A stretch of 64,000 bases of DNA from Salinibaculum rarum (lineage in GTDB: Archaea; Halobacteriota; Halobacteria; Halobacteriales; Haloarculaceae), in the NCBI RefSeq assembly GCF_030505615.1, contig NZ_CP129992.1, positions 2,852,001-2,916,000 of the forward strand, written 5' to 3'. The stretch's first letter is position 1. Each line of letters starts with the position of its first letter. The notes below the pieces were generated by a model. The model saw only the letters and a program-made list of their open reading frames with translations. It searched no databases and was not told where the DNA came from. This document shows positions 7,112 through 53,747 of the stretch, piece after piece. A program made the translations under genes and the position numbers.

Positions 7112-7186
7112 GGGCGCTTAGCTCAGCTTGGACAGAGCACTTGGCTTCGGACCAAGATGCCGCGGGTTCAAATCCTGCAGCGCCCA
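7112..7186 (+). tRNA. tRNA-Arg (anticodon TCG)
   Basis: A complete cloverleaf without intron. The acceptor stem GGGCGCT (7112-7118) pairs with AGCGCCC (7179-7185), discriminator A7186. The D arm contains TAGCTCAG. The anticodon stem CTTGG/CCAAG encloses loop CTTCGGA with anticodon TCG, reading CGA. The T arm is GCGGG TTCAAAT CCTGC. CCA is not encoded. A TATA-like TTTTTATC about 28 bases upstream is consistent with its own promoter. The 380 bp downstream are gene-poor and look like debris, as often found beside tRNA integration targets. Confidence 0.95.
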
Positions 7187-7346
7187 TAGTAGGTTTACCT
7201 CCCGAATACTCGGATTACATCCCCTAATTCCGGCGTTTAGCGTTCTGCTGTTGCAATGCGTTTGCTTTCGTCCGACGAGCAACCGGGCAAGTGGTGTCCC
7301 CACACTCGTCGAAAACATTCAGGAGGTCCTCGAGCGCGAGGGGGTC

Positions 7347-12159: not shown

Positions 12160-13962
12160 TCAGAAGGGGATGTAGCGTGGCCGCTCGCACGGTCCCGTCC
12201 GTTCGAGGATGACCGTGTACTGGTTGGCCGCAAGTTCCTGCTCGTCAGCGAACTGGTCGGTCTGGGGAACGACACCGTACCTGACCAGGTCGCGGACCGA
12301 GCCAGGCGTCGCCCGACGGGGGACGAAGTTCGGCGGCCGCGTCCCGAACTCGGCGGCCACCGTGTAGTTGTACTCGCCGTTCAGCAGCGATCGAAGGTAG
12401 CGTTGCTTCACCTGACTGTTCCGATAGTAGGTGTCATTTTTGAGATACAGCAGGTCCCGGTAGCCGATCTGGATGTACTCGGGGCAGACGGCGACCGGTT
12501 CAGAGACGTCACGGCCGTAGGGATGGTGCATATTCATGCCGTGGGGCACGACCGAATCCTGCATATTCCGGCGGTAGCTCTCCAGCGTCGCGTTCTCGCC
12601 GGCGTTGTCGGTCAGCCACGTCCGGGACTCGTCGCGGGGCATCGAGGCGAACCCGGCAGCGCCGATGCCGGCGTATATCGCCGAGGTCACCAGCAAGGCG
12701 GCGATGACCGGCCGCGCGATGGCGGGCCGGGACTCGCGGGCGGCGACGAGACTCCTGGCGAGTAATATTGCGAGTAGCGGGAACGTCGGCAGGAGGTGAT
12801 GCACCCGGAAGTCGTGCCACCGCGAGAACAGCAGGAGATACAGGAACACACCGGCGAGCACTAGCGCCGTCGCGTCGAGGTCGTCGGGTGTCGTCGATCC
12901 GTCCAGCCACCGCCGGAGCGAAACGGCGCTGGCGAGGGCACCGACGACCGACGCGACGAACAGCGGCAACCCGAGGCCGCTGAAATAGCCCCGGAGGAAC
13001 CACCACCAGATGGGTGCGTCGGGGCCGGTCGCCCAGTTCATCCGCGTGCTCGAGCCTGCGAAAATCCGCTCGTAGACGACGTCGAACCCGCCGACCAGAA
13101 GCGTCGGGAACCCGAGCATGATCGCCGCGAGCCCGAACAGCGCGCCGCTGGCGAACAGCCAAGGACGGAACAACGTGCCGACACGGTCCTCGACCCGGCG
13201 TGCCCGCAGGAGGTGGGCCAGCCCAATCAGCGCGACGACGGGCGCCGCGGTGAGTTTGAATGCGATGGCGAGACCACCGGCGGCGCTGCCGGCCAGAAAG
13301 CTCGTCGTGTCGTCAGTCTGGACGTACCGGACGACGAGATAGAGCGCAAGAAGCAGGAAAAACGTCGCCGGCATATCTTCGCCGCCCTCCTTCGCGATGG
13401 TGAGAAAGCCGAAGGTCAGCGACAAGAGCACGCCGGCCAGCCGCCCGGTCGCACGGTCGCGCACCACGGTGCCGATCCGGTAGGTGAGATAGACCGCACC
13501 GACGGCAAAGCAGACGTTAAAGAGCCGGACAAAAAGTAGCGACCAGGTCCAGAACCACTCGGGCGTAGTCGCCCACGATGGATAGAAGCCGAACTCCCAG
13601 CTTGGCTGCTGAAAGGCCGTGAAGATGTCGAGCTGGCCGGTCACGACAGTGACGAGAAAAACCGGCAGGACCGCCAGCCCGAACAGGTAAAACGTCGCGC
13701 CGAAGGGCGCGCGGCTCCACATGACACCCTCCCTGAGCGACGCGTAGCTCGGGTCGGCGATCACGTTGCCGTACGCGACCAGCACGTCCATGAGCCGGCT
13801 GTGTTCGTCGCGGGTGGCGAAGTTGGGAATGCGGTGCCAGAACCAAAAGCCCGCCAGCACGACCGCCAGCCCGAGGACGTACTTCAGGTACGGGTCAGTC
13901 CGCAGGTCGTCGGCGACCCGCCCGGCCGCCCGCCCGTACAGTTTCCGGATGGCCGTTCGCAT
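12160..13962 (-). CDS. PMT/ArnT-like glycosyltransferase, multi-spanning membrane protein (divergent paralogue)
   Basis: A 600-residue protein with about 11 membrane helices and an extracytoplasmic C-terminal domain. It shares the layout and many motifs of the two larger paralogues at 14003 and 17838: FWFWHRIPNFAT(R/W)DEH with the catalytic-type Asp-Glu in the first loop, AKEGGEDMPATFFL, FKLTAAPVVALIGLAH, WHDFRVHHLLPTFPL, ECEYIQIGY-like region, LLNGEYNYTVAAEFGTRPPNFVPRR. Such GT39/GT83-type enzymes use dolichyl-phosphate sugars to glycosylate lipids or proteins outside the membrane; acceptor unknown. It is clearly older and more divergent than the near-identical pair. Start ATG 13962. Confidence 0.82.
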   Translation of the reverse strand: MRTAIRKLYGRAAGRVADDLRTDPYLKYVLGLAVVLAGFWFWHRIPNFATRDEHSRLMDVLVAYGNVIADPSYASLREGVMWSRAPFGATFYLFGLAVLPVFLVTVVTGQLDIFTAFQQPSWEFGFYPSWATTPEWFWTWSLLFVRLFNVCFAVGAVYLTYRIGTVVRDRATGRLAGVLLSLTFGFLTIAKEGGEDMPATFFLLLALYLVVRYVQTDDTTSFLAGSAAGGLAIAFKLTAAPVVALIGLAHLLRARRVEDRVGTLFRPWLFASGALFGLAAIMLGFPTLLVGGFDVVYERIFAGSSTRMNWATGPDAPIWWWFLRGYFSGLGLPLFVASVVGALASAVSLRRWLDGSTTPDDLDATALVLAGVFLYLLLFSRWHDFRVHHLLPTFPLLAILLARSLVAARESRPAIARPVIAALLVTSAIYAGIGAAGFASMPRDESRTWLTDNAGENATLESYRRNMQDSVVPHGMNMHHPYGRDVSEPVAVCPEYIQIGYRDLLYLKNDTYYRNSQVKQRYLRSLLNGEYNYTVAAEFGTRPPNFVPRRATPGSVRDLVRYGVVPQTDQFADEQELAANQYTVILERTGPCERPRYIPF

Positions 13963-14002
13963 CGTTTGTCAGTCGTCGAAGTTGCCTGAGTATCTTTCGC
14001 TG

Positions 14003-14905
14003 TCACCATGGCGGCGTCCGCGACTCAACGCAGGACCCGTCGCGTTCCAGGATGGCGACGTACTGGTTAGCCCGTAGTTCCTGCTCGTCGCCGTACTGGT
14101 CGCTGTGTGGGTTGACCCCGAGCGGAATCAGATCGCGGAGCGAACCCGGCTCGGCCCGACGGGGAACGAAATTCGGCGGCCGCTGTCCGAACTCCGCGGC
14201 CACCGTGTAGTTGTACTCACCGTTCAGTAGCGCCCGGACGTAGGTGGCCCGCTCGTCGACCCGCGAGTCCACGTCGTAGCCCCGCTGGTCGTCGGGGATG
14301 TCCCGGAGATAGAGCAGTTCCTTGTAGCCGATCTGGATGTACTCGGGACAGCGCTCGACGCGCGGGTCGTCCATGCCGTGCCAGATCGGATTGACCCGCA
14401 TCCCGTGGGGGATGGCGTTCTCCACGAACCCGTGATAGTACGTCTCCATCGTCGCATTCTCCTCGGCGTCCTCGGCCAGCCACGCCGTCGCGTCGTCCCG
14501 GGGCATCGAGGCGTACAGCCCGACGCCGACGCCCGCATAGACCGCCGAGCCAACCAGCACGACCGCGAGTGCGACCCGCCCGACCGTCCGCCGGCGGGCC
14601 ACAAGCCGGCGCAGGGCGTCCGCGAGCAAAATCATCACCAGCGGGAACGTCGGCAGGAGGTGATGCACCCGGAAGTCGTGCCACGTCGCAAAGAACGCGA
14701 GGAAAGCAAGGAGGGTGGCGACGACGAGCACCTGGGCATCGAAATCCGGCGCCGGGGCGCGTACACCCTCTGTGGGTGCGAGCCGGACGAGCCCGACGAG
14801 GCTCGCGGCGAGGCCGACGACAGCGGCGACCAGAAGCGGCCAGCCGAACGCGCTGACGTACGTCCGAAGGAACCACCACCAGCCCGGTGCCGTGGGGCCG
14901 ACCGC
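14003..14905. repeat. Direct repeat unit, copy 1 (C-terminal half of PMT-like gene)
   Basis: About 900 bp nearly identical to 17838-18740 at constant offset 3835 with only scattered substitutions. The match begins slightly before the gene ends (about 13976 versus 17811: TCGAAGT(T/C)GCCTGAGTATC). Both copies lie in the same orientation. Confidence 0.85.
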
Positions 14906-15832
14906 GAGATTCGTCCGGCCAGTCCGGCCAAAGAGCCGATTCACGACCGGCTCGACCTCGCCGACGAGCGCGGTCGGGAAGCCGAGTGCAATCGTGACGG
15001 CACCGATGCCGGCACCAACGAGCAGGAGCCGGGGCCGCCAGAGTGCGCGCCGCCACGGTCCCGCGTCGGTCCGGGCTTCGAGCAGGTGAGCGAGCCCGAA
15101 AATCGGGACGACCAGTCCCACCGTGGGTTTGAACGCGATGGCGAGGCCGCCGGCGGCGCTGGCCTCGTAGAAGTGCCGTTGCCGCCCGTCCCTGACGTAG
15201 CGAACGAGCAGGTACAGCGCGAGCACGAGACACATTGTCGCCGGGATGTCCTCACCGCCCTCCTTTGCCAGCTTGAGAAAGCCGAACGTACACGCGAGCA
15301 GGGCGGCGGCCACCCGCCCGGTCCAGCGGTCCTGGAGTTCGGTTCCCAGCCGGTAGACCAGGTAGACGGTGACGACGGCGAAGACGACGTTCGTCAACCG
15401 GACAAAGACCAGACTCCACGTCCAGATCCAGCGGGGCGTCTCGGCCCACACTGGGTAATGGGCGTACGTGCCCTCCGGGACCCCTATCGCCGCGATGGCG
15501 TCGAGATTCCCCCCGATAGCGGCGGCCACGATCACCGGCGCCACGGCGAGCGCGTAGACGTAAAAGGTCGCGCCAAAAGGCGCACGGCCCCAGGCGACCC
15601 CCTCCTGGAGTCCCTCGAGGCTCGGGTCGGTGACGACCGACGCGTACGCCACCAGCGGGTCGAGCACGCGGTTGTGTTCGTCCCACGTGGCGAAATTTGG
15701 AATCCGGTGCCAGAACCAGAACCCCGCGAGCAGGAGCGTCGCCGCGAGCACGTAGCCCAGATACGGGTCCGCCCGAAGATCCGACATCAGCTGCCGCTTC
15801 GCGCGGCCGACCACATCGGATCGCAGTTCCAT
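14003..15832 (-). CDS. PMT/ArnT-like membrane glycosyltransferase, duplicate copy 1
   Basis: A 609-residue multi-helix protein of the dolichyl-phosphate-sugar-dependent transferase type, with the first-loop motif IPNFATWDEHNRVLDP, the periplasmic-type AKEGGEDIPATMC, the WHDFRVHHLLPTFPLVMILL helix and a soluble C-terminal domain (CPEYIQIGYKELLYL, GEYNYTVAAEFGQRPPNFVPRR). It is nearly identical at base level to 17838-19835 in long blocks, including about 30 bases past the stop codon, so the pair arose by recent duplication or is held together by gene conversion. The internal segment between residues about 255 and 315 differs. Start ATG 15832; the neighbour gene starting at 15945 is divergent. 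Confidence 0.82.
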   Translation of the reverse strand: MELRSDVVGRAKRQLMSDLRADPYLGYVLAATLLLAGFWFWHRIPNFATWDEHNRVLDPLVAYASVVTDPSLEGLQEGVAWGRAPFGATFYVYALAVAPVIVAAAIGGNLDAIAAIGVPEGTYAHYPVWAETPRWIWTWSLVFVRLTNVVFAVVTVYLVYRLGTELQDRWTGRVAAALLACTFGFLKLAKEGGEDIPATMCLVLALYLLVRYVRDGRQRHFYEASAAGGLAIAFKPTVGLVVPIFGLAHLLEARTDAGPWRRALWRPRLLLVGAGIGAVTIALGFPTALVGEVEPVVNRLFGRTGRTNLAVGPTAPGWWWFLRTYVSAFGWPLLVAAVVGLAASLVGLVRLAPTEGVRAPAPDFDAQVLVVATLLAFLAFFATWHDFRVHHLLPTFPLVMILLADALRRLVARRRTVGRVALAVVLVGSAVYAGVGVGLYASMPRDDATAWLAEDAEENATMETYYHGFVENAIPHGMRVNPIWHGMDDPRVERCPEYIQIGYKELLYLRDIPDDQRGYDVDSRVDERATYVRALLNGEYNYTVAAEFGQRPPNFVPRRAEPGSLRDLIPLGVNPHSDQYGDEQELRANQYVAILERDGSCVESRTPPW

Positions 15833-15944
15833 CGGCTGGCGATAGGACGAGGGGGTGGTAAAGCGTTGTTTTCCCGTTCGCAGCGCTGGACTGATCGATA
15901 CGTACCACGTGATTTACGTGACGCGACAGCAGAGTCCCGGTTGG

Positions 15945-17273
15945 ATGGGTATCACTACCGACGGCGCTCCCTCGCTCCGGGAGTGTGAACAGTGGGTGGC
16001 GGACAACTGGTGGTCGGTCCTGCTTGCGTGTGCGATCCTCGTTCCCGTTGCCATGACCGTGTTCAACTTCTTCGAGTCACCGTTTTACATCCACGAGGAC
16101 TCCGCGCTGTTCCAGCACGGCGGCTGGTACATCGGGCAGGGAGCGGCGCTGTACGTCGACATCTGGGACCTCAAACCGCCGCTGATCTACGCCGTCACGA
16201 CCGTCCTCGCCTTCCTCTCGTTTGGCAACATGGCCGCGTTGCACGTACTCGGCGTCACCGCGGCGGTAGCGGCCGTCTCCGGGGGCGTCGTGTGTCTCGG
16301 GCTCGTCGTCCACCGGCTGACCGACGACGGCGTCGCCAGCGTCGTCGCGGCCGTCTCGATGTTCGGCCTCACATCGGTGTACGCCTTCCCCTACGCCGGC
16401 ATCCGACCGAAGTACTTCGCGTTCCTGTGTGCCGCCGGGGCGCTTCTCTGTGCCGTCGACGACCGCCATCTCGCCAGCGGTGCCGCGGCCGCACTGAGTG
16501 CCGGCTTCTGGCAACTCGGGGGCGGCATCGCCGTGCTCGTGGTGGCGATGGCACTCCAGCGGGAGGGACTCGAGGCCGCCGGCCGGACCGTCGCCGGCGG
16601 GGTCGCCGTGGCCGCGGTGACGGTCCTGCCCTTCGTCCTCACCGGAACAGGGACGGCGCTGTTCGTCGAGGCAGTCATCGCGCCGCTGTACGGCGTCGAG
16701 CGCTACACCGTCCCCGGGCGCATTCTCACCTTCGTCGTCCAGCTCGGATACGGTGCCCTGCTCGTCCCCCTGGCCGCCTACGGCTGGTGGCGCGGCGCGA
16801 GCACGGACCTGAGCCGATACGGGTGGGTCGCCGCCGGCGGTGTCACCTACCTCTTTCAGATCTTCCTCGAATTCCAGGGTGCCATCGAGATGATCCTCGT
16901 GTACCTGTTCGTCGCACTCGGGATCGGGGTCCTCGTCGCGGAGATGCCGACGCCATCCCACCGGGTACTCGTCGCCGGGTGTGTCCTCCTGTTCGTGGTG
17001 ACTGCGCCGGCTTGGCACAATGGCACGGTCGCGCCGCTGAAAGAGGAGACGGTCGACCTGCAAAACGACTTTGACGTGCCCGATCACGCCAGCATCCCGC
17101 CCGATCCCGAGGGCGTCCCGTCGATGCAGACCATCTACTGGGAGAAACTGAAGCCGGACATCTGTCACTACCGGCTGGGAGACAAACAGAAGTACTTCAT
17201 GGCAGCCACTAACGGAACGCTGGACAAGGCCGAGTGCGGACAGTGGCCCTTCGAGGAGACGCCGTCAACGTGA
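15945..17273 (+). CDS. Large membrane protein, DolP-mannose mannosyltransferase-like
   Basis: A 442-residue protein with about 11 membrane segments. The N-terminal loop after TM1 carries FYIHEDSALFQHGGWYIGQGAALYVDIWDLKPPL, which is split here only for description: the acidic pair after the first helix and the WDLKPPL motif are those of GT39/GT83-type polyprenyl-phosphate-sugar transferases. The C-terminus (from about residue 395) is a short extracytoplasmic tail ending in ECGQWPFEETPST. The start is ATG 15945, chosen over in-frame GTG codons upstream because it directly precedes the charged segment before TM1. It sits between the two duplicated PMT-like genes, on the opposite strand, and probably serves the same glycan pathway. 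Confidence 0.75.
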   Translation: MGITTDGAPSLRECEQWVADNWWSVLLACAILVPVAMTVFNFFESPFYIHEDSALFQHGGWYIGQGAALYVDIWDLKPPLIYAVTTVLAFLSFGNMAALHVLGVTAAVAAVSGGVVCLGLVVHRLTDDGVASVVAAVSMFGLTSVYAFPYAGIRPKYFAFLCAAGALLCAVDDRHLASGAAAALSAGFWQLGGGIAVLVVAMALQREGLEAAGRTVAGGVAVAAVTVLPFVLTGTGTALFVEAVIAPLYGVERYTVPGRILTFVVQLGYGALLVPLAAYGWWRGASTDLSRYGWVAAGGVTYLFQIFLEFQGAIEMILVYLFVALGIGVLVAEMPTPSHRVLVAGCVLLFVVTAPAWHNGTVAPLKEETVDLQNDFDVPDHASIPPDPEGVPSMQTIYWEKLKPDICHYRLGDKQKYFMAATNGTLDKAECGQWPFEETPST

Positions 17274-17478
17274 CTCCGCGGCGGGCTGTGGCCGCTTGGC
17301 GCTGCCACTCGTCGTCTATGGACCGGTCGACGAAAGCTTCGCCATCGGAGTCGCCGAGGGGAGAGCGGCAGTCGCTGAAAGACCGACCCGAAGCGCTCGT
17401 TGAGAATACGCCCACTGGCGTTCGGTGTGATACATCCGGCATACGGACACCCATCTCAACATCGTCAATAAAAGGTAG

Positions 17479-17808
17479 TGTCTCGGTTGGTTTCCGAGGC
17501 CTTTGGTGAGTCTAGCTCCCCCCATTGAGCGACGCGATGTCCCAGAATCGTCTGGTTGGATCCCGACACGACAGGGCCGGTACCAGCAACGACTCGATGG
17601 CCAATTCGCGCCTTCTATTCAGTACGATCCTCTGAACATCAACGGGATCTGGTAGAATCTGCAGCAGTAGGTCGGCATGCTTATTGAGTGGACGATTCAG
17701 CCAGCTCTCGATAGAACAAATCACGTGGGTTATTTCTCTGACCCGTTCGAGAAGTGGTTAGTTAGCCTTGCGGAGCGTGCCATCAACGTCGTAGAGCCGG
17801 CCCTCTAA
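17479..17808 (+). pseudogene. Relic of an unassigned gene with two nonsense codons
   Basis: One frame reads as protein-like sequence (VPESSGWIPTRQGRYQQRLD, then QFAPSIQYDPLNINGIW) up to TAG at 17653, then NLQQ, TAG at 17668, then VGMLIEWTIQPALDRTNHVG and YFSDPFEKWLVSLAERAINV, ending VEPAL TAA at 17806. Both stops could come from CAG to TAG changes. It is truncated upstream (in-frame TAG 17476). I do not recognise the family. It lies beside the edge of the duplicated PMT block, which begins at about 17811, so it may mark the junction where the second copy inserted. The rest of the gap 17274-17478 shows nothing identifiable. Confidence 0.45.
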
Positions 17809-17810
17809 CG

Positions 17811-18740
17811 TCGAAGTCGCCTGAGTATCTTTCGCTGTCACCATGGCGGCGTCCGCGACTCGACGCAGGCCCCGTCGCGTTCCAGGATGGCGACGTACTG
17901 GTTGGCCCGTAGTTCCTGCTCGTCGCCGTACTGGTCGCTGTGTGGGTTGACCCCGAGCGGAATCAAATCCCGGAACGACCCCGGCTCGGCCCGGTTGGGG
18001 ACGAAGTTCGGCGGCCGCTGTCCGAACTCCGCGGCCACCGTGTAGTTGTACTCACCGTTCAGTAGCGCCCGGACGTAGGTGGCCCGCTCGTCGACCCGCG
18101 AGTCCACGTCGTAGCCCCGCTGGTCGTCGGGGATGTCCCGGAGATAGAGCAGTTCCTTGTAGCCGATCTGGATGTACTCGGGACAGCGCTCGACGCGCGG
18201 GTCGTCCATGCCGTGCCAGATCGGATTGACCCGCATCCCGTGCGGAATGGCGTTCTCCACGAACCCGTGGTAGTACGTCTCCACTGTCGCGTTCTCCTCG
18301 GCGTCCTCGGCCAGCCACGCCGTCGCGTCGTCCCGGGGCATCGAGGCGTACAGCCCGACGCCGACGCCCGCATAGACCGCCGAGCCAACCAGCACGACCG
18401 CGAGTGCGACCCGCCCGACCGTCCGCCGGCGGGCCACAAGCCGGCGCAGGGCGTCCGCGAGCAAAATCATCACCAGCGGGAACGTCGGCAGGAGGTGATG
18501 CACCCGGAAGTCGTGCCACGTCGCAAAGAACGCGAGGAAAGCAAGGAGGGTGGCGACGACGAGCACCTGGGCATCGAAATCCGGCGCCGGGTCACGTACG
18601 CCCTCTGTGGGTGCGAGCCGGACGAGCCCGACGAGGCTCGCGGCGAGGCCGACGACAGCGGCGACCAGAAGCGGCCAGCCGAACGCGCTGACGTACGTCC
18701 GGAGGAACCACCACCAGCCCGGTGCCGTGGGGCCGACAGC
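17811..18740. repeat. Direct repeat unit, copy 2
   Basis: Partner of the repeat at 13976-14905. A further near-identical block, 15128-15470 against about 19131-19476 (offset about 4003-4006), follows the diverged middle segment. The two copies flank the 15945-17273 gene. Confidence 0.85.
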
Positions 18741-19835
18741 ATGACTGATCCGTCTAGATATCCGACCTACGATCCGTCCTGTAAGCGGTTCAACCTGATT
18801 TACGACGGCGGTTGGAGCAGCTATGGCGAGTGTGACGGCACCCACGACGGCACTGGCAAGCAGGAGTCGTGGCCGCCAGAATGCACGCAGTCCTGGTCCG
18901 ATGCTCGTCCGTGTTCGAAGGAAATATATGAGTCCGAGGACCGGGACAAGGGGCCAGACATACCGGACAACCGCGGTCGGGAAGCCGAACACGGTCGTCG
19001 TGAGACCGATGCCGGCACCGACGAGCAGGGGTCGGGGCTGCCAGAGTGCACGCAACCACGGATCTGTGTCGGTCCGGGTTTCGAGCAGGTGGGCAAAGCC
19101 AACGGACAGAGCAATCAGCCCGACAGTCGGCTTGAACGCGATGGCGAGGCCGCCGGCGGCGCTGGCCTCGTAGAAGTGCCATTGCCGCCCGTCCCTGACG
19201 TAGCGAACGAGCAGGTACAGCGCGAGCACGAGACACATCGTCGCCGGAATGTCCTCACCGCCCTCCTTTGCCAGCTTGAGAAAGCCGAACGTACACGCGA
19301 GCAGGGCGGCGGCCACCCGCCCGGTCCAGCGGTCCTGGAGTTCGGTTCCCAGCCGGTAGACCAGGTAGACGGTGACGACGGCGAAGACGACGTTCGTCAA
19401 CCGGACAAAGACCAGACTCCACGTCCAGATCCAGCGGGGCGTCTCGGCCCACACTGGGTAATGGGCGTACGTGTTTTCGGGGAACCGAATCGCAGCAATT
19501 GAATCAATGTTCCCGACCACTGCCGCGGCAGCGACGACGGGCAACACCGCGAGCGCGTAGACGTAAAACGTCGCGCCGAATGGCACACGACCCCATGTGA
19601 TGCCCTCGCGGAGCGCTTCAATGCTTGGGTCGGCAATGACCGACGCGTACGCCACCAGCGGGTCCAGTACTCGGTCGTGTTCGTCCCACGTGGCGAAATT
19701 TGGAATCCGGTGCCAGAACCAGAACCCCGCGAGCAAGAGCGTCGCCGCGAGCACGTAGCCCAGATACGGGTCCGCCCGAAGATCCGACAGGAACTGTCGT
19801 TTTGCACGCCTGAACCGGCTGGGACGATTCTGCAT
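17838..19835 (-). CDS. PMT/ArnT-like membrane glycosyltransferase, duplicate copy 2, with internal 56-codon expansion
   Basis: A 665-residue homologue of 14003-15832. The C-terminal half (17838 to about 18738) and the block at about 19136-19476 are almost base-for-base the same as copy 1, while the start of the gene and a middle segment (about 18740-19135) are diverged. The middle segment is 168 bp longer and reads as two diverged versions of one module: TRTDTDPWLRALWQPRPLLV and TRTSIGPGLRAFWRPRLLLA, each followed by a hydrophobic helix and FPTAVV or APTAVV. All family motifs (NFATWDEHDRVLDP, AKEGGEDIPATMC, WHDFRVHHLLPTFPL) remain, so it is probably functional. Start ATG 19835. Confidence 0.82.
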   Translation of the reverse strand: MQNRPSRFRRAKRQFLSDLRADPYLGYVLAATLLLAGFWFWHRIPNFATWDEHDRVLDPLVAYASVIADPSIEALREGITWGRVPFGATFYVYALAVLPVVAAAAVVGNIDSIAAIRFPENTYAHYPVWAETPRWIWTWSLVFVRLTNVVFAVVTVYLVYRLGTELQDRWTGRVAAALLACTFGFLKLAKEGGEDIPATMCLVLALYLLVRYVRDGRQWHFYEASAAGGLAIAFKPTVGLIALSVGFAHLLETRTDTDPWLRALWQPRPLLVGAGIGLTTTVFGFPTAVVRYVWPLVPVLGLIYFLRTRTSIGPGLRAFWRPRLLLASAVVGAVTLAIAAPTAVVNQVEPLTGRIVGRISRRISHAVGPTAPGWWWFLRTYVSAFGWPLLVAAVVGLAASLVGLVRLAPTEGVRDPAPDFDAQVLVVATLLAFLAFFATWHDFRVHHLLPTFPLVMILLADALRRLVARRRTVGRVALAVVLVGSAVYAGVGVGLYASMPRDDATAWLAEDAEENATVETYYHGFVENAIPHGMRVNPIWHGMDDPRVERCPEYIQIGYKELLYLRDIPDDQRGYDVDSRVDERATYVRALLNGEYNYTVAAEFGQRPPNFVPNRAEPGSFRDLIPLGVNPHSDQYGDEQELRANQYVAILERDGACVESRTPPW

Positions 19836-20252
19836 CAGGTTTGAATCAGACGACGGAGAAAAAAGCGTTCTTATATGTATATGGGCGGAGCAATCCGATT
19901 GGTTCGGAATTGTTACTCATTGAGAGGGTTTGGTGCTGCTGAGATGCTTCGCGTCTCGGACCTCCTGCTTCGAGATGTTTCACCGAATCAAGTAGTTGTG
20001 GACTGAATGGCGGTGTGGCTTCTCACCCGAACGACCAGGTTTGGGCGGCAATCCTACAGGAGTAGGTCCGTTGCAAACGGCCATTGACCACAGTTGGCTT
20101 CGTAAGACTACCGTGGGGTGGAGTGTGCGAAGTATTTCTGTTTGTGGCCTGGTTGATATCTGTGGTATTCAACACAGACCACGACCGTTGAAAACGTCAG
20201 GACAGGTGGACACCAGAAAACATATAGCAGTACTATTTTCAATACCCATATC
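19836..20252. other. AT-richer intergenic region without recognisable gene
   Basis: 417 bp with lower GC than the surroundings and no frame that looks coding. It contains TATA-like tracts (CTTATATGTATATGG near 19870, which could serve the minus-strand PMT gene, and AACATATAGCAG near 20220 before the GT87 gene). No tRNA, inverted-repeat IS end or CRISPR-like repeat was found. Confidence 0.5.
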
Positions 20253-21473
20253 TTGCAGAGAGAGGAATCCACTGCATCATTACGCCGAGCGCGGTTGGCT
20301 CTCGGATTGGGCGTATTCCTCGGGACGGTGTATGTGCTTTATCGACTTACTATTACTCCAGATCTATTCGGCCTTGATTTTGAGATCTATCGTGCTGCGG
20401 CTGTAGATTTACACACGGGCCAGGAAGTCTACGGCCGGTCTCCTGTCGGTGTTCCGAATCTTACGTACCGGTATCCAATCATACTGCTGGCTGTCTTTTC
20501 GCTCTATCTTCTGATTCCCCCTGTTGTCGGGTTTGCGCTTCATCTCGCCGGAACCATTCTTGTGAGCGTGATACTTGGACTCGCTATTGCGAGGGTAACC
20601 GAATCACACGGTATCCGGTTGTCGAACCTTGATCGCGGTCTAATCTGCGCATTCATCGCCATCAGTCCGATTAGCGTACCATCGTTAGTGTTTGGTAATA
20701 TCAACCATCAAATTGCACTTTGCTTCGGTCTGGGTCTTATCTGGCTAGAACAGAACCTGCAACACCGCGCTGGTGTCGCCCTCGGACTTGCGGCTCTTCC
20801 AAAAGTATTTCCTGCTGCTGTCGGCGTCTGGTTGGTCTACCGACGAAAGTGGTATGCGATTTTACTGGCCATTGCCACCGGTGTCGGGGCACTTGCCGGT
20901 GGTATCGTGCTCTTTGGGTGGACTCATACACAGCGATATTTTGTTGAGGAACTGCTCCCACGAGGTACTGCAAATGCCGCTTCAGGCGGCCTGTCTCCTT
21001 CAAGTCTCTATGTGACACTTCAGCGGCCGCTTACAGCGATGTTCGCTGATGCAAGTGGAACTCTGCTCACAGTGATGGCACTCGTACTAGTCGCTCCAGT
21101 GGTAGCCTACGCGTATCTGTACAGTGAGGGCCCTCTGCAAAGACTCATTGCGCTCCTCACAACGCTGTGTGCGATTCTGCTGGTAATTCCCTCGTATACG
21201 ATGTATTTCGTTCTCCTTTCGTATCCGCTGATTCCGCTGTTGTATCTCCTCTCAGGTTGGCCCGGTCGGATTTTCACCGGGGGAGTGGTTCTGATGCAGT
21301 TTACGTTGAAACTTCATGATGCGGGTATGCTGGTTCGACTGCTTGGATTCCCTGCATGGGGCACTGAAGTGATGCTGGAGAGCCTCCGTGTGTTCTACAC
21401 GCTCGGAACTCCGGTCCTTTGGGGAACTGTGGCTGTCCTCATCGCGGGAATCTGGCAGATCCATTCAAACTAA
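20253..21473 (+). CDS. GT87-family (DUF2029) membrane glycosyltransferase-like protein
   Basis: A 406-residue polytopic protein with about 10 helices. The signature lies after TM1: DLFGLDFEIYRAAAVDLHTG with an Asp in the first outer loop, GQEVYGRSP, then YRYPIILLAVFSLY; later GNINHQIALCFGLGL and LPKVFPAAVGVWLVYRRKW. These are typical of the GT87 polyprenyl-phosphate-mannose-dependent mannosyltransferases. The only upstream start is TTG 20253; an internal GTG (TVYVLYRL) is also possible, so the N-terminus is uncertain. Codon use and GC are visibly lower than in the neighbouring PMT genes, suggesting separate acquisition. Probable role: adding a sugar to a surface glycan or lipid outside the membrane. 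Confidence 0.75.
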   Translation: MQREESTASLRRARLALGLGVFLGTVYVLYRLTITPDLFGLDFEIYRAAAVDLHTGQEVYGRSPVGVPNLTYRYPIILLAVFSLYLLIPPVVGFALHLAGTILVSVILGLAIARVTESHGIRLSNLDRGLICAFIAISPISVPSLVFGNINHQIALCFGLGLIWLEQNLQHRAGVALGLAALPKVFPAAVGVWLVYRRKWYAILLAIATGVGALAGGIVLFGWTHTQRYFVEELLPRGTANAASGGLSPSSLYVTLQRPLTAMFADASGTLLTVMALVLVAPVVAYAYLYSEGPLQRLIALLTTLCAILLVIPSYTMYFVLLSYPLIPLLYLLSGWPGRIFTGGVVLMQFTLKLHDAGMLVRLLGFPAWGTEVMLESLRVFYTLGTPVLWGTVAVLIAGIWQIHSN

Positions 21474-21555
21474 CGTGGGTGTGTCATAGAACGATTCCCA
21501 AGGCGTTGTCTACCGTATGTTCGGTAAATAAGCGTTTCAGTGAACGGATGGAGGC

Positions 21556-21699
21556 GTGAATACTGATACACTCACTCTCTATATCGATGGTGTCAGAAGT
21601 TGGCTGCTGAATAGAGAGGATCTATACCACAATGCGACTATTCCACCACGACCCCGCGAAACTAACCGCTCGGTAAATCTGCTAACTGAGCACCAGTGA
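21556..21699 (+). CDS. Short open frame, uncertain
   Basis: GTG-started frame of 47 residues (VNTDTLTLYIDGVRSWLLNR... to ...RSVNLLTEHQ) in the otherwise empty 21474-21811 gap. The amino-acid composition is plausible for protein, but there is no recognisable family and no clear promoter. It may be a remnant of a longer gene. Confidence 0.2.
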   Translation: MNTDTLTLYIDGVRSWLLNREDLYHNATIPPRPRETNRSVNLLTEHQ

Positions 21700-21811
21700 C
21701 CGCTTCTCGGACAAATTCCGACCTCTGTTCGAGACAGGTTTGTCTCAATTCACGCTTGCCCTGGCACAGAGTAGTCACAAACATCTTCACCGGGCGCCAG
21801 TTTTTGTTGGT

Positions 21812-22534
21812 ATGGTTGCCCGCCCTCGAAGTCCCCTTCGTGCAGTACTACTGGCCGTTGTCATACTGCTGGCTGGCTGTTCGGGTCTACTTGGTACAGA
21901 CCAACAGACGCCCACTCCAGACCCGGCGGTAGAGAACTTCTCCTACCCCTCGGGATGGTCTCAAGCGGGGATAACAGACCTTACCGTTGCGGTGGAAACG
22001 CACGACGAGACCGTGGAAAATGTCTCCCGGAAAAATCGGCTGGTCATTACCGACGAGGACTCGAACCGCACGGTAGTCAGAACAGTAGACACCGGTGCTG
22101 GTACCGGTTCGATACGGTTTATCGACACGCAACTCAACACTGATGTTCACGCCTACTACAACGCCGAGGGCGTGTTCGAGTATGATCGGACAACGGAGGA
22201 ACTGACCCGGAGGTCCGATGAGAACTGGACAACAGCAGACGTAGCCACAATGCCGGGGATTGAACGACCACTCCGGAATCTCGAACTGAACGCGGCTGAG
22301 ACTGTCACCGTCGACGGGTCGACAGCCGTCAAATACACTGTGACTGGTATCAGGAACCCTGACTCAGTCCCGTCGAATACCGCAACCGGGCACGTCACTG
22401 TTGCCGAAGACGGATTCATCGCAGAATACGATGTCACGAGAGGAAACGATGACTTTACGCGCCAGACGCGCTACAAGCTCTCAGCGTTGGAGACTGCGAC
22501 GGTTACACGGCCAGCGTGGATGCCCGACCAGTAG
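21812..22534 (+). CDS. Haloarchaeal lipoprotein (DUF7537-like)
   Basis: A 240-residue secreted protein. The ATG at 21812 gives MVARPRSPLRAVLLAVVILL followed by lipobox LAGC (Cys about residue 23), whereas the longer open frame from 21740 would bury the signal; hence 21812. The mature part begins with a Thr/Pro linker (TPTPDPA) and then a beta-rich domain with pattern YPSGWSQAGITDLTVAVETH, YYNAEGVFEYDRTTEELTRR and VKYTVTGIRN, resembling bacterial LolA/LppX-like folds and the haloarchaeal DUF7537 lipoprotein family. It is anchored to the outer face of the membrane; binding of a lipid or other hydrophobic ligand is speculative. It stands alone, upstream of three small or unrelated genes. Confidence 0.75.
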   Translation: MVARPRSPLRAVLLAVVILLAGCSGLLGTDQQTPTPDPAVENFSYPSGWSQAGITDLTVAVETHDETVENVSRKNRLVITDEDSNRTVVRTVDTGAGTGSIRFIDTQLNTDVHAYYNAEGVFEYDRTTEELTRRSDENWTTADVATMPGIERPLRNLELNAAETVTVDGSTAVKYTVTGIRNPDSVPSNTATGHVTVAEDGFIAEYDVTRGNDDFTRQTRYKLSALETATVTRPAWMPDQ

Positions 22535-22756
22535 CCATACTCGTCCGTAGAATTTTGCCGCTCAAAGCCCCCTCTGGCGGGGATATATGCGAGTGAATCC
22601 GGCAGTCGGGTCACTTTCGACAACACCAGGGAGACACCCATATTCGAAGTGACGTTTTCTATGTCGGTTATTCGCCGCACGCCGTTTGTGAAGGCCCCTC
22701 ATATTCGAAGACGAGTTTCCGTTCCAGCGCTCCTGTAAAGTAACAACTCCATTCGA

Positions 22757-22984
22757 TTAGTTGATCGGGCGAGCAGTACGTCGTCGCCTGTTGCGTTTCT
22801 GGAGGTAGAGCATTCCGACGACGATAGCACCGATAATTGGTGGGATGAACATGCCGACAAAGAACCCGACAGCCCACATGTCGGCAGTCTCCATATTCCG
22901 CTGTCGCCCGTCGACATAGATCCAGCCACCGCTGAGTAGGCCGATGATGACGGCCAACATTCCGGAGATTTCGATACCAACCAT
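22757..22984 (-). CDS. Small two-helix membrane protein
   Basis: A 75-residue protein with helices at about 6-22 (ISGMLAVIIGLLSGGWIYVD) and 38-62 (VGFFVGMFIPPIIGAIVVGM) and a basic tail (QKRNRRRRTARPIN) indicating a cytoplasmic C-terminus. The loop GRQRNMETADMWA between helices is typical of small uncharacterised haloarchaeal membrane proteins. No function assigned. It is in an AT-richer stretch with weak codon bias. The next gene on the same strand, another small membrane protein, is 124 bp upstream. Confidence 0.6.
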   Translation of the reverse strand: MVGIEISGMLAVIIGLLSGGWIYVDGRQRNMETADMWAVGFFVGMFIPPIIGAIVVGMLYLQKRNRRRRTARPIN

Positions 22985-23108
22985 GCAGCGAGATTATCTC
23001 CGCGGGCAAGTAAGACGCCCGATGGGACAAATACCCATTTCACTAAGCGGGCACAGAGAGCAACGATTTCCGACCAGTTCTGGAAGGGATTCGTGGCCGG
23101 GGAGAGCA

Positions 23109-23351
23109 TCAATTGTCTACCGCAGTAGCCGGGCTCTGGGCCGTCGTGGTTTCACCAGTGGCATACTCTATCCACCGCTGTATCATGAAGTACGTGACCG
23201 AAATGTGAATCGCCGAAAACGCCAGCACGAAGCCGAGGAATTCGACTGAAATGTTCGTCCCTCGTGCTTGTCCATACGTCACGAAGACGCTCAACACGGT
23301 CAGAAAGAAGGCGATACCGAGATACTGTGACAGGGCGGGCTTCGATGTCAT
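23109..23351 (-). CDS. Small two-helix membrane protein
   Basis: An 80-residue protein starting at ATG 23351 (MTSKPALSQYLGIAFFLTVL). The frame extends upstream to 23399, but those residues have no membrane-protein character. Helices lie at about 9-27 and 40-60 (LGFVLAFSAIHISVTYFMIQ), with a polar tail ending TTTAQSPATAVDN. No motif suggests activity. It is codirectional with 22757-22984 and may be cotranscribed with it. Confidence 0.5.
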   Translation of the reverse strand: MTSKPALSQYLGIAFFLTVLSVFVTYGQARGTNISVEFLGFVLAFSAIHISVTYFMIQRWIEYATGETTTAQSPATAVDN

Positions 23352-23668
23352 GGGTGGTAAATTCTCACACAGTAGATTAAAATTGATGTCGGCAGACACA
23401 GCGTTCTGTTCCGGTCATAGCGCGATTGTCTGTGCTGATTGCGTGAATACTGTCCGTGTTGACGCTGTGTGGTGGACGCAGATTTATCGCTCCAGCGGGC
23501 ACAGCACTGGCTATCGCACACGCCAGAGATTCCGACGCAAGATCAGACAGCAGCCAACAGGTCGTCTCCACTGGCGGACCTATTTTCCGACGGACTCGAC
23601 GCAGCTTTCTCGCTGGTCGTAAAGAAGAACGGTAGTCTTTCGTCGGTCCATTCTGAACACTCCGGTAG
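23352..23668. other. Intergenic region upstream of trkA
   Basis: 317 bp with no coding-like frame and no recognised RNA. Overlapping frames here are low-complexity Ser/Arg-rich translations of the opposite strand. The trkA promoter must lie in its right part, but no clear TATA box is visible. Confidence 0.4.
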
Positions 23669-24352
23669 ATGTACATCGTCATCGTCGGGGCAGGTGACAT
23701 CGGAACGCCACTCATCGACATCGCCACCAGGGGTGGCAACGAGGTTGTCGTCATCGAGCGCGATGAGGAGCGGGCCGAACGCGCGTCACGGCAGTTCGAC
23801 TGTCTGGTACTCAACGATGACGCAACGACCAAGGAGACCTTACAGGACGCCGGGGCCGACCGTGCTGATGCGCTCATCTCGACGACCGACCAGGACGCGA
23901 CGAACATCATGGTCTGTCTGCTGGCACAGGAACTGGACGTCCCGGATATCGTCTCGGTCGTCCACAACCCCGAACACATGAGCGTGTTCCGCCAGATCGG
24001 CGTCAACACGATGCAGAATCCCCAACATCTCATCGCCGAATACCTCTATCGCGCCGTCAAACGTCCCTCGATTGTCGATTTCATGCGCATCGGCGACCAG
24101 GCAGAAGTGTTCGAGATTACTGTCGAAGAGAACGCGCCCATCACGGGCAAGACCTTACAGGAGGCCAACGAGGAGGGACTCGTCGGTGGCGATACGCTCA
24201 TCGTTGCCGTCGAGCGGAGCGACGACGAGGGGCCGATCACGCCCCGCGGCAGCACACGAATCAGGCCCGGCGACTTGCTCACGGTCTACTCTGCAGAGGG
24301 TGCCACACCCGAAGTGACGGATGTGTTCGGCCATCCTGAAGACCACAGCTAA
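23669..24352 (+). CDS. trkA: TrkA-type potassium uptake regulatory protein (RCK_N and RCK_C)
   Basis: A 227-residue cytoplasmic gating protein. The N-terminal Rossmann domain has MYIVIVGAGDIGTPLID and the acidic strand end VVVIERDEERAE that selects NAD(H); ISTTDQDATNIMVCLLA follows. The C-terminal RCK_C (TrkA_C) domain spans about 140-220, with VEENAPITGKTLQEAN and GDTLIVAVERSDD. It ends three bases before trkH and is clearly in the same operon. TrkA binds nucleotide and opens the TrkH pore, allowing uptake of the K+ that haloarchaea hold at molar levels. Confidence 0.9.
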   Translation: MYIVIVGAGDIGTPLIDIATRGGNEVVVIERDEERAERASRQFDCLVLNDDATTKETLQDAGADRADALISTTDQDATNIMVCLLAQELDVPDIVSVVHNPEHMSVFRQIGVNTMQNPQHLIAEYLYRAVKRPSIVDFMRIGDQAEVFEITVEENAPITGKTLQEANEEGLVGGDTLIVAVERSDDEGPITPRGSTRIRPGDLLTVYSAEGATPEVTDVFGHPEDHS

Positions 24353-40599: not shown

Positions 40600-41358
40600 A
40601 TGAGCGAACACCGACTCACGCGACGGGGACTGCTTGCGGGAACCGCTGGCCTGGCTGTTGCTGGACTTGCCGGATGTACCGGCGCTCCGGAGGCATCCAA
40701 CGATCAGAACTCCGGAGACGACCAGGCTGGGCACGGGGACGAAGCGCACGGCCACGACACGGTCAGCGAACCCAAGGCCTCCCGGGAAGTGGCGGTCAAC
40801 ACCGCGCGGAACGGAGATTCGACCGAGTATCACTTCGACCCTCACGTCACGTGGGTCGAACCCGGAGGGACAGTCACGTGGCGCCTCGAGAGCGGGTCGC
40901 ACACCGCGACTGCATACCACCCCGGAAACGATCAACCTCAACTGGTTCCGGACGGGACCGAGGCCTGGGACAGCGGAATGTTGTCCGAAGAAGGAGAGAC
41001 GTTCGAGCATACCTTCGAGAACGAGGGGGTCTATCACTACCTCTGTACGCCCCACGAGACGTTCGGGATGATGGCTACCGTCATCGTTGGAGAGCCTCAC
41101 GTCGAGGACCAGCGGGCGCTCCAGACGATTCCGGAGGACAAACCCGAGGAAGTTCGCGGAAAGCTCAAGGAACTCAACACGATGGTCCGTGACATCGTGG
41201 GTGGCGGGCACGAAGAGGACGGCGGCCACGAAGATGACGGCGGACACGACGAGAGTACTAGTACTGAAGAAGGCGGACACGAAGAGGACGGCGGACACGA
41301 CGAGAGTACCAGTACCGAAGAAGGCGGCCACGAAGAGGAAACCCACACCGAAGGGTGA
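40600..41358 (+). CDS. Halocyanin-like blue copper lipoprotein with His-rich repeat tail
   Basis: A 252-residue exported protein. ATG 40600 gives the Tat-type signal MSEHRLTRRGLLAGTAGL ending in lipobox LAGC (Cys 26). The plastocyanin-like domain spans about 60-165, with copper ligands His 101 (SGSHTATAY), Cys 149, His 152 (YLCTPHETFGM) and Met 157, as in halocyanins, which carry electrons at the outer membrane face. After residue 165 there is a helical stretch, then from about 200 a repetitive acidic/His tail built from GGHEEDGGH and DESTSTEE units, potentially metal-binding. The frame upstream of 40600 is non-coding. It is divergent from a winged-helix regulator. Confidence 0.88.
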   Translation: MSEHRLTRRGLLAGTAGLAVAGLAGCTGAPEASNDQNSGDDQAGHGDEAHGHDTVSEPKASREVAVNTARNGDSTEYHFDPHVTWVEPGGTVTWRLESGSHTATAYHPGNDQPQLVPDGTEAWDSGMLSEEGETFEHTFENEGVYHYLCTPHETFGMMATVIVGEPHVEDQRALQTIPEDKPEEVRGKLKELNTMVRDIVGGGHEEDGGHEDDGGHDESTSTEEGGHEEDGGHDESTSTEEGGHEEETHTEG

Positions 41359-52581: not shown

Positions 52582-53679
52582 TCACCGGCCAGCGCCAAGT
52601 GTGTCCGCCCACGAGCGGTCGCTGACCCTCGGATTGTCCCCACCGTGTGGCGTCTGCCGCTCCCGGACTTGGGCGGTGTGGACCGTCTCGGTCGCGTCGT
52701 CGACCACGACCACCTCGCCGGGTACCGACGGGAGCTGGTTTTCCAGCGCGGTGGTCAGGTAGGTCGGCCGGGCACGCGCCAGCGCGTCGAGGTCAGTCTG
52801 GGCGGTCAACCGATGTGCAACCAGAATATCCGACTGTGAGACGGCGACCGGAGGAATCGCGCTTGGCCGCTGGGTCGCAACGACCAGACTGACACCGGGC
52901 GCCCGGCCCCGCGTGAGAATCCGCTCGAGTGCAGCCCGTGCAACACCGTCGAAAAACGCGTGCGCCTCGTCGACGAGTAGCCAGGGGAGTCGCTCGACTG
53001 TCTCGTCGACGCGCATCCGATAGAGCACGTCACCGATGCCCCGGACGACGGCGTTCATCGGTGCCGGGTCGAGTCCCGAGACGTCGACGACGGTCAGTGC
53101 ATGGCCGGCGAGGTCCTGTGCCGACAGTCCCTCGTCGTCGAAGACGCCCCACGACTCGGCGAGTGAAAGGTGGTTGATGGCCGCGCGCCGGTCACGCGTG
53201 GGCGCGTCCGCGTCGTCTATCGACTGGCGCATCGCCGGAAGCCGGTCCCCCGTCTGGGCGGCCCGCCAGACGAGGCTGCCTGCCCCGCTCTCGGGGTCGA
53301 GGCCGAGCAGGGCACACCACGACCGAGGGTCCAGTGCAGTCGGTGCGACCGAGGGCTCGGCGACGACTGTCGCCGGAACCGGACCATCAGTGTCCTCCGC
53401 GTCTGCCATCGGCGCGAACACGCCCATCGGGTCGACGATGACGGGTGCCACGCCGGGCGTTCGGGCGAGAAACTCCGCGACGACGCCGAGGGTGTAGGAT
53501 TTACCGTAGCCACGCTTGCCGACGACCAGCGCCGCGTGTGGACCGTCGACATCGAGATACAGCGGTGCGCCGTCGCTGCCATCCAGCGCGCGGTAGGCGC
53601 CGAGTCGGCCGACCGGACCGGCGTCGACGCCCGCCTCGCGACCGAGTACGAATGTCACACCTGCGGGTGGTCGCCCCAT
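52582..53679 (-). CDS. HerA-like/DUF87 ATPase
   Basis: A 365-residue P-loop ATPase. An N-terminal beta-barrel-like part precedes Walker A ALVVGKRGYGKSYTLGVV; Walker B is LPWLLVDEAHAFF; sensor-type VSLVVATQRPSAIPP and an Arg-finger-like VAHRLTAQTDLDALARARP follow. This is the HerA/FtsK-related family used in DNA end resection with NurA, and also in plasmid and membrane-linked roles. It is shorter than canonical HerA (about 500 residues) and no NurA gene is nearby, so a DNA-repair role is not assured. It lies 49 bp after the convergent TusA gene. ATG 53679. Confidence 0.82.
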   Translation of the reverse strand: MGRPPAGVTFVLGREAGVDAGPVGRLGAYRALDGSDGAPLYLDVDGPHAALVVGKRGYGKSYTLGVVAEFLARTPGVAPVIVDPMGVFAPMADAEDTDGPVPATVVAEPSVAPTALDPRSWCALLGLDPESGAGSLVWRAAQTGDRLPAMRQSIDDADAPTRDRRAAINHLSLAESWGVFDDEGLSAQDLAGHALTVVDVSGLDPAPMNAVVRGIGDVLYRMRVDETVERLPWLLVDEAHAFFDGVARAALERILTRGRAPGVSLVVATQRPSAIPPVAVSQSDILVAHRLTAQTDLDALARARPTYLTTALENQLPSVPGEVVVVDDATETVHTAQVRERQTPHGGDNPRVSDRSWADTLGAGR

Positions 53680-53747
53680 CGTATTTGAATCTCCACTCGA
53701 ATCCCCGACACAGTACGTTTTAATCGGGCCAGCGACTGTACGCGAGT

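Follow-up and report, generated by a model that had tools for sequence, protein, structure and literature searches.

A mosaic pair of GT-C glycosyltransferase genes in Salinibaculum rarum, best read as gene conversion between old paralogues

Two neighbouring glycosyltransferase genes of Salinibaculum rarum, here called A and B, alternate along their length between near-identity and strong divergence. The mosaic is best explained by ectopic recombination between old paralogues, and we infer gene conversion as its route in preference to others. A duplication within this lineage, followed by divergence and then by patchy conversion of B with A as template, is very probable. Gene conversion or recombination between the paralogues, proposed in a preliminary description of this DNA, is supported by the profile of silent-site divergence (dS), by tractwise comparison with relatives, by a GC3 asymmetry between the genes and by permutation tests against controls. 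The window, the whole stretch of 64,000 nucleotides that was analysed, covers positions 2852001-2916000 of one of the three contigs of the 3.54-Mb source genome, and positions below are those of the window unless another genome is named.

Genes and protein family

Four genes are central to the locus:
14003-15832, minus strand: gene A, GT-C (PMT_2) glycosyltransferase of 609 aa and probable donor; an ORF with a Pfam PMT_2 match (E 4e-16), the GT-C fold and uniform GC3
17838-19835, minus strand: gene B, GT-C (PMT_2) glycosyltransferase of 665 aa, mosaic and probable recipient; an ORF with a Pfam PMT_2 match (E 5e-15) and GC3 that differs between its tracts
12160-13962, minus strand: gene C, PMT_2 out-paralogue of 600 aa with no clear part in the exchange, as judged by Pfam, trees, neighbours and A/C clustering
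15855-17273, plus strand: Mannosyl_trans4 (DolP-mannose mannosyltransferase family) gene between A and B (Pfam E 1e-28), with a possible alternative later start at about 15948

The PMT-like identity first proposed for the glycosyltransferases was borne out, as A, B and C all match Pfam PMT_2 and PMT above the curated cut-off. The AlphaFold model of A (pTM 0.84) matched ALG12, AglB, ArnT and Pmt4 in Foldseek at E 3e-08 to 3e-04, which is the GT-C fold, while a search of solved structures by sequence gave no relevant match. GT-C enzymes have acidic active-site residues. The acidic pair D51-E52, directly after the first long hydrophobic helix, was invariant in 13 of 13 sequences and would lie in the first extracytoplasmic loop, as predicted from the topology of known GT-C enzymes. 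Its position fits that of the active-site residues, and a catalytic role is suggested by the same enzymes. Family, fold and neighbours indicate that A and B are probably both working GT-C lipid-linked sugar transferases within a surface-glycan gene cluster.

Relatives of the gene were present in 69 of the 146 genomes of the family. Protein identity to named haloarchaeal relatives was 72% for Halovenus carboxidivorans, 68% for Haloarcula rara and 63% for Halorientalis salina. A Mannosyl_trans4 gene also lies close to A-type genes in Halovenus (G018) and in genomes G060, G121 and G123.

Alternating tracts, direction and proposed history

Of 1827 coding positions aligned between A and B, 174 differ. 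The first stretch of the gene (A 15832-15787) holds 22 of these differences, and the following tracts alternate in A:
15674-15786, minus strand: presumed converted tract S2, 113 nt, 1 difference (B 19789-19677; codons 16-53; dS 0.04)
15471-15673, minus strand: divergent tract D1, 203 nt, 53 differences (B 19676-19474; codons 54-121; dS 1.02, dN 0.165)
15129-15470, minus strand: presumed converted tract S3, 342 nt, 3 differences (B 19473-19132; codons 122-235; dS 0.035)
14903-15128, minus strand: divergent tract D2, 226 nt, 73 differences (B 19131-18738, including an extra 168 nt; codons 236-310; dS 0.87, dN 0.285)
13976-14902, minus strand: presumed converted tract S4, 927 nt, 22 coding differences (14902-14003) in small clusters (B 18737-17811; codons 311-609; dS 0.07)

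Segment values of dS and dN were obtained by the Nei-Gojobori method. Identity in S4 runs 27 nt past the stop codon and no further, and the regions upstream of A and B share no similarity. The ends of A/B homology lie inside or near the gene.

The ORFs and blockwise differences agree with the patchwork identity noted earlier for the copies at 14003-15832 and 17838-19835. Its tract of about 340 bp corresponds to S3 and its 3' tract of about 900 bp to S4, and the divergence placed at the 5' end and in the middle is found in the first stretch and in D1 and D2. Two features are absent from that description, namely the third near-identical tract (15786-15674) and a partial internal duplication of 56 aa in B. 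The codon-level alignment that it had proposed, with synonymous divergence followed along the gene, was carried out and gave dS alternating between 0.035-0.07 and 0.87-1.02 rather than uniform values.

Exact identical runs between A and B reached 300, 236 and 225 nt, all longer than in any of 10,000 codon shuffles (mean longest run 69 nt, maximum 172). The dispersion of A/B differences was 10.6 against 1.3 in the shuffles. For synonymous differences at amino-acid-identical codons, the clustering index of A/B was 3.59, compared with 0.71-1.25 in 14 between-genome controls. The small clusters of differences inside S4 may reflect several conversion events of different age.

Between A and the Halovenus gene, dS is roughly even (0.8-1.5) over all the same segments, which shows that silent sites in the shared tracts are not slow by nature. 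The divergence of A and B outside those tracts is of the size seen between genera. Protein constraint is ruled out as the cause of the patches because silent sites are affected. A and B group as sisters (95% bootstrap) when the divergent tracts are used for the tree, at a distance of 0.52; the tree of the shared tracts puts them 0.017 apart. This combination of sisterhood and near-identity points to duplication in this lineage, long divergence and patchy homogenisation, in that order. Bounded tracts more alike than their history predicts, silent sites included, are what conversion between paralogues is expected to leave, and A and B carry them.

The third paralogue at 12160-13962 was confirmed as an ORF. 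In both trees C groups with genes of other genera in a separate, older clade, and members of this clade in G020, G120 and G121 adjoin the same cassette of a GT2 gene, a polysaccharide deacetylase and an LPG-synthase-like gene. Judged by these comparisons, C appears to have formed a lineage of its own since ancient times and shows no clear conversion. One identical A/C run of 45 nt (around WHDFRVHHLLPTFPL) stands out against a plain codon shuffle. Conversion involving C was rejected, as the run is not significant among amino-acid-identical codons (P 0.07-0.11) and the A/C dispersion of 1.21 falls within the control range.

GC3 of B is 0.64 in the divergent and 0.88 in the shared tracts (P = 2e-12), while that of A is flat at 0.84 and 0.86, respectively (P 0.44). 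The spacer upstream of B has 49% GC. In GC3 the shared tracts are like the remainder of A and unlike that of B, so A is probably the donor and B the recipient; GC3 is the one measure from which polarity is read.

Under this scheme, the paralogues would have arisen by duplication once this lineage had parted from the sampled relatives (Halovenus and others), and would have diverged to about 1 substitution per silent site. Later ectopic homologous recombination, most likely with A as template, would have overwritten at least three patches of B, at codons ~16-53, at codons ~122-235 and from codon ~311 to shortly beyond the stop. It would have spared the internal duplication of B and its codons 1-15, 54-121 and 236-310. 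The conversion would be recent relative to the duplication.

The internal duplication of B and tandem pairs in other haloarchaea

B is longer than A by 56 residues (a 168-nt insertion), which derive from the partial repeat of a segment of about 52 residues:
18783-19103, minus strand: in-frame partial internal duplication in B, with ~aa 245-296 repeated at ~aa 300-351; 26 of 52 residues identical, local score 118 against a shuffled maximum of 51

No repeat of this type occurs in A, in C or in the six relatives displayed in the alignment. A recent simple tandem duplication was rejected as the source of the insert, since the halves score 118 against each other and 202 and 187 against A. The AlphaFold model of B has low confidence at the insert, with residues 264-322 below pLDDT 50. 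Branch lengths in the D2 tree are 0.63 for B and 0.03 for A, which suggests that the D2 tract of B is fast-evolving; it is not free of constraint, because dN/dS between A and B is 0.33 there. In an A-type relative in G020 (L056 15461-17353), the alignment with A breaks near residue 246-256, the same region as the insertion in B, and an independent insertion at the D2 position is possible.

Two other adjacent close pairs were tested, of which the Haloarcula rara pair (NZ_CP119785.1, a complete genome) is mosaic and the G082 pair is not. The H. rara pair has a dispersion of 2.47 and 73 consecutive same-codon sites at A residues 119-201, with dS of 0.14 in codons 122-235 against 0.69-0.81 in codons 236-310 and 16-53. 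The set of spared tracts differs between species, D1 being spared in A/B but not in H. rara. The G082 pair was rejected as a third mosaic case, its dispersion of 1.12 lying within the controls. Universal sparing of D2 was likewise rejected, as it holds for A/B and H. rara and fails for G082. Pairs that are old or lie far apart, in G020, G120, G121 and Halorientalis salina, showed no mosaic.

A broader scheme can be drawn from these pairs, in which conversion would repeatedly homogenise the common core of tandem haloarchaeal GT-C enzymes while selection protects segments for acceptor specificity (the first extracytoplasmic loop and the helix pair 236-310). Two specificities would then be kept on one scaffold, and the duplication in B would be part of a new specificity. 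We regard this scheme as unlikely. If the spared tracts do carry specificity, they would reveal the acceptor-selecting part of a GT-C enzyme.

Competing explanations, known systems and genomic context

Patchy conversion of B was weighed against three other explanations. The first has B arise recently by copying of the whole of A, with codons 1-15, 54-121 and 236-310 replaced from a diverged homologue of another strain or species. Such allelic import would yield the same mosaic, would agree with the distinct GC3 of the divergent tracts of B, and would draw on the frequent recombination within haloarchaeal glycosylation genes (PMC5867893). A recent whole-gene copy should, however, bring its flanks, and the two genes share nothing upstream and only 27 nt past the stop. 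Since B groups as sister to A even in its divergent tracts, this account also calls for a donor from a closely related lineage outside the sample, and it takes more events. We consider it improbable.

The second explanation is programmed variation, in which recombination between A and B (and C) would shuffle specificity regions, alter surface glycans and allow escape from viruses. Genes of the surface-glycan type do sit in a segment missing from the sister species, and D1 comes immediately after D51-E52, the conserved pair in the loop predicted to be the first extracytoplasmic one. Antigenic variation of this kind joins one expressed gene with silent donor cassettes, whereas the whole-genome search matched only A, B and C, all intact ORFs, and found neither silent cassettes nor extra copies. 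No strong inverted repeat suggestive of a switch was found, C has no clear role in the exchange, and the spared tracts vary by species. Conversion homogenises here, its net effect being a B that is more A-like. The antigenic or phage-receptor diversification suggested in the preliminary description was not upheld on these grounds and because the sister species lacks the locus, and programmed variation is judged highly improbable.

Least credible of all is an assembly chimera or a collapse of two similar genes: a short-read assembler might stumble over exact shared runs as long as 300 nt, but both ORFs are intact with different flanks and 174 differing sites, small clusters of differences lie inside the shared tracts, and the same pattern occurs in the independent complete genome of H. 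rara.

Conversion between A and B has partial counterparts in known systems. Concerted evolution of duplicates by gene conversion is known from rRNA operons and the tuf genes of Salmonella (PMC8223754). As in those cases, tracts of about 100 to 900 nt appear homogenised between paralogues, silent sites included. Unlike them, the homogenisation of A and B is only partial, leaving a mosaic with long unconverted tracts at dS of about 1, and concerns membrane glycosyltransferases and not housekeeping genes. In the polyploid Haloferax volcanii, intermolecular gene conversion is very efficient (PMC8223754). The haloarchaeal recombination machinery is common to both, whereas that work dealt with alleles on separate genome copies and with tracts that often span kilobases, and A/B concerns short tracts between paralogues in one genome. 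Within-gene recombination is also described for Haloferax surface genes and for the glycosylation genes aglB, aglD and aglJ (PMC5867893), which likewise places recombinant segments in haloarchaeal surface-glycan genes. Those events occurred between strains or species at one locus, while A and B are neighbouring paralogues of one genome. Antigenic variation from silent cassettes by gene conversion in pathogenic bacteria (PMC8223754) shares recombination between homologous surface-related genes with A/B, which lack an expression site and silent cassettes and show homogenisation instead of diversification.

An open-access literature search, with most subscription papers outside its scope, found no report of this gene pair. 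Since both haloarchaeal gene conversion and concerted evolution of duplicates are known, A/B adds a clean new case of a process already described. It provides an unusually sharp and statistically clean record of conversion between archaeal protein-coding paralogues, with a second haloarchaeal lineage showing it independently. Trees of these glycosyltransferases, and annotation carried over between them, can be led astray by mosaic genes of this kind.

A, B, C and two genes next to them are missing from the sister species (G001). Its chromosome tracks the window up to a tRNA-Arg gene (7112-7186), differs for about 3.8 kb and then matches the window at 52610-53690. The roughly 45 kb downstream of the tRNA-Arg (about 7187-52600) thus vary between the two species. 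This region contains the glycosyltransferase cluster, TrkH, PAS kinases, chemotaxis transducers and methylmalonyl-CoA mutase, with many non-glycan genes among its contents, and parts of the window at 20-33 kb match scattered sites in G001.

The last 18 nt of the tRNA-Arg gene and 113 nt downstream (7169-7299) recur with 90% identity at G001:C1:1493203-1493333 (L053 8204-8334), where ARAGORN found no tRNA. The recurrence has the look of a scar left at an attachment site by a mobile element that uses this tRNA-Arg; no attR copy of the tRNA-Arg end was found inside the window. Directly upstream of B, the stretch 19836-24000 has a low GC of 49-57% compared with about 60-68% around it, and is possibly recently acquired DNA. 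It holds a GT87 gene (20253-21473) and a gene for a DUF7537-like protein (21740-22534). Further along the window, a 51-nt tandem repeat of 2.3 copies with 92% matches lies at 41221-41339.
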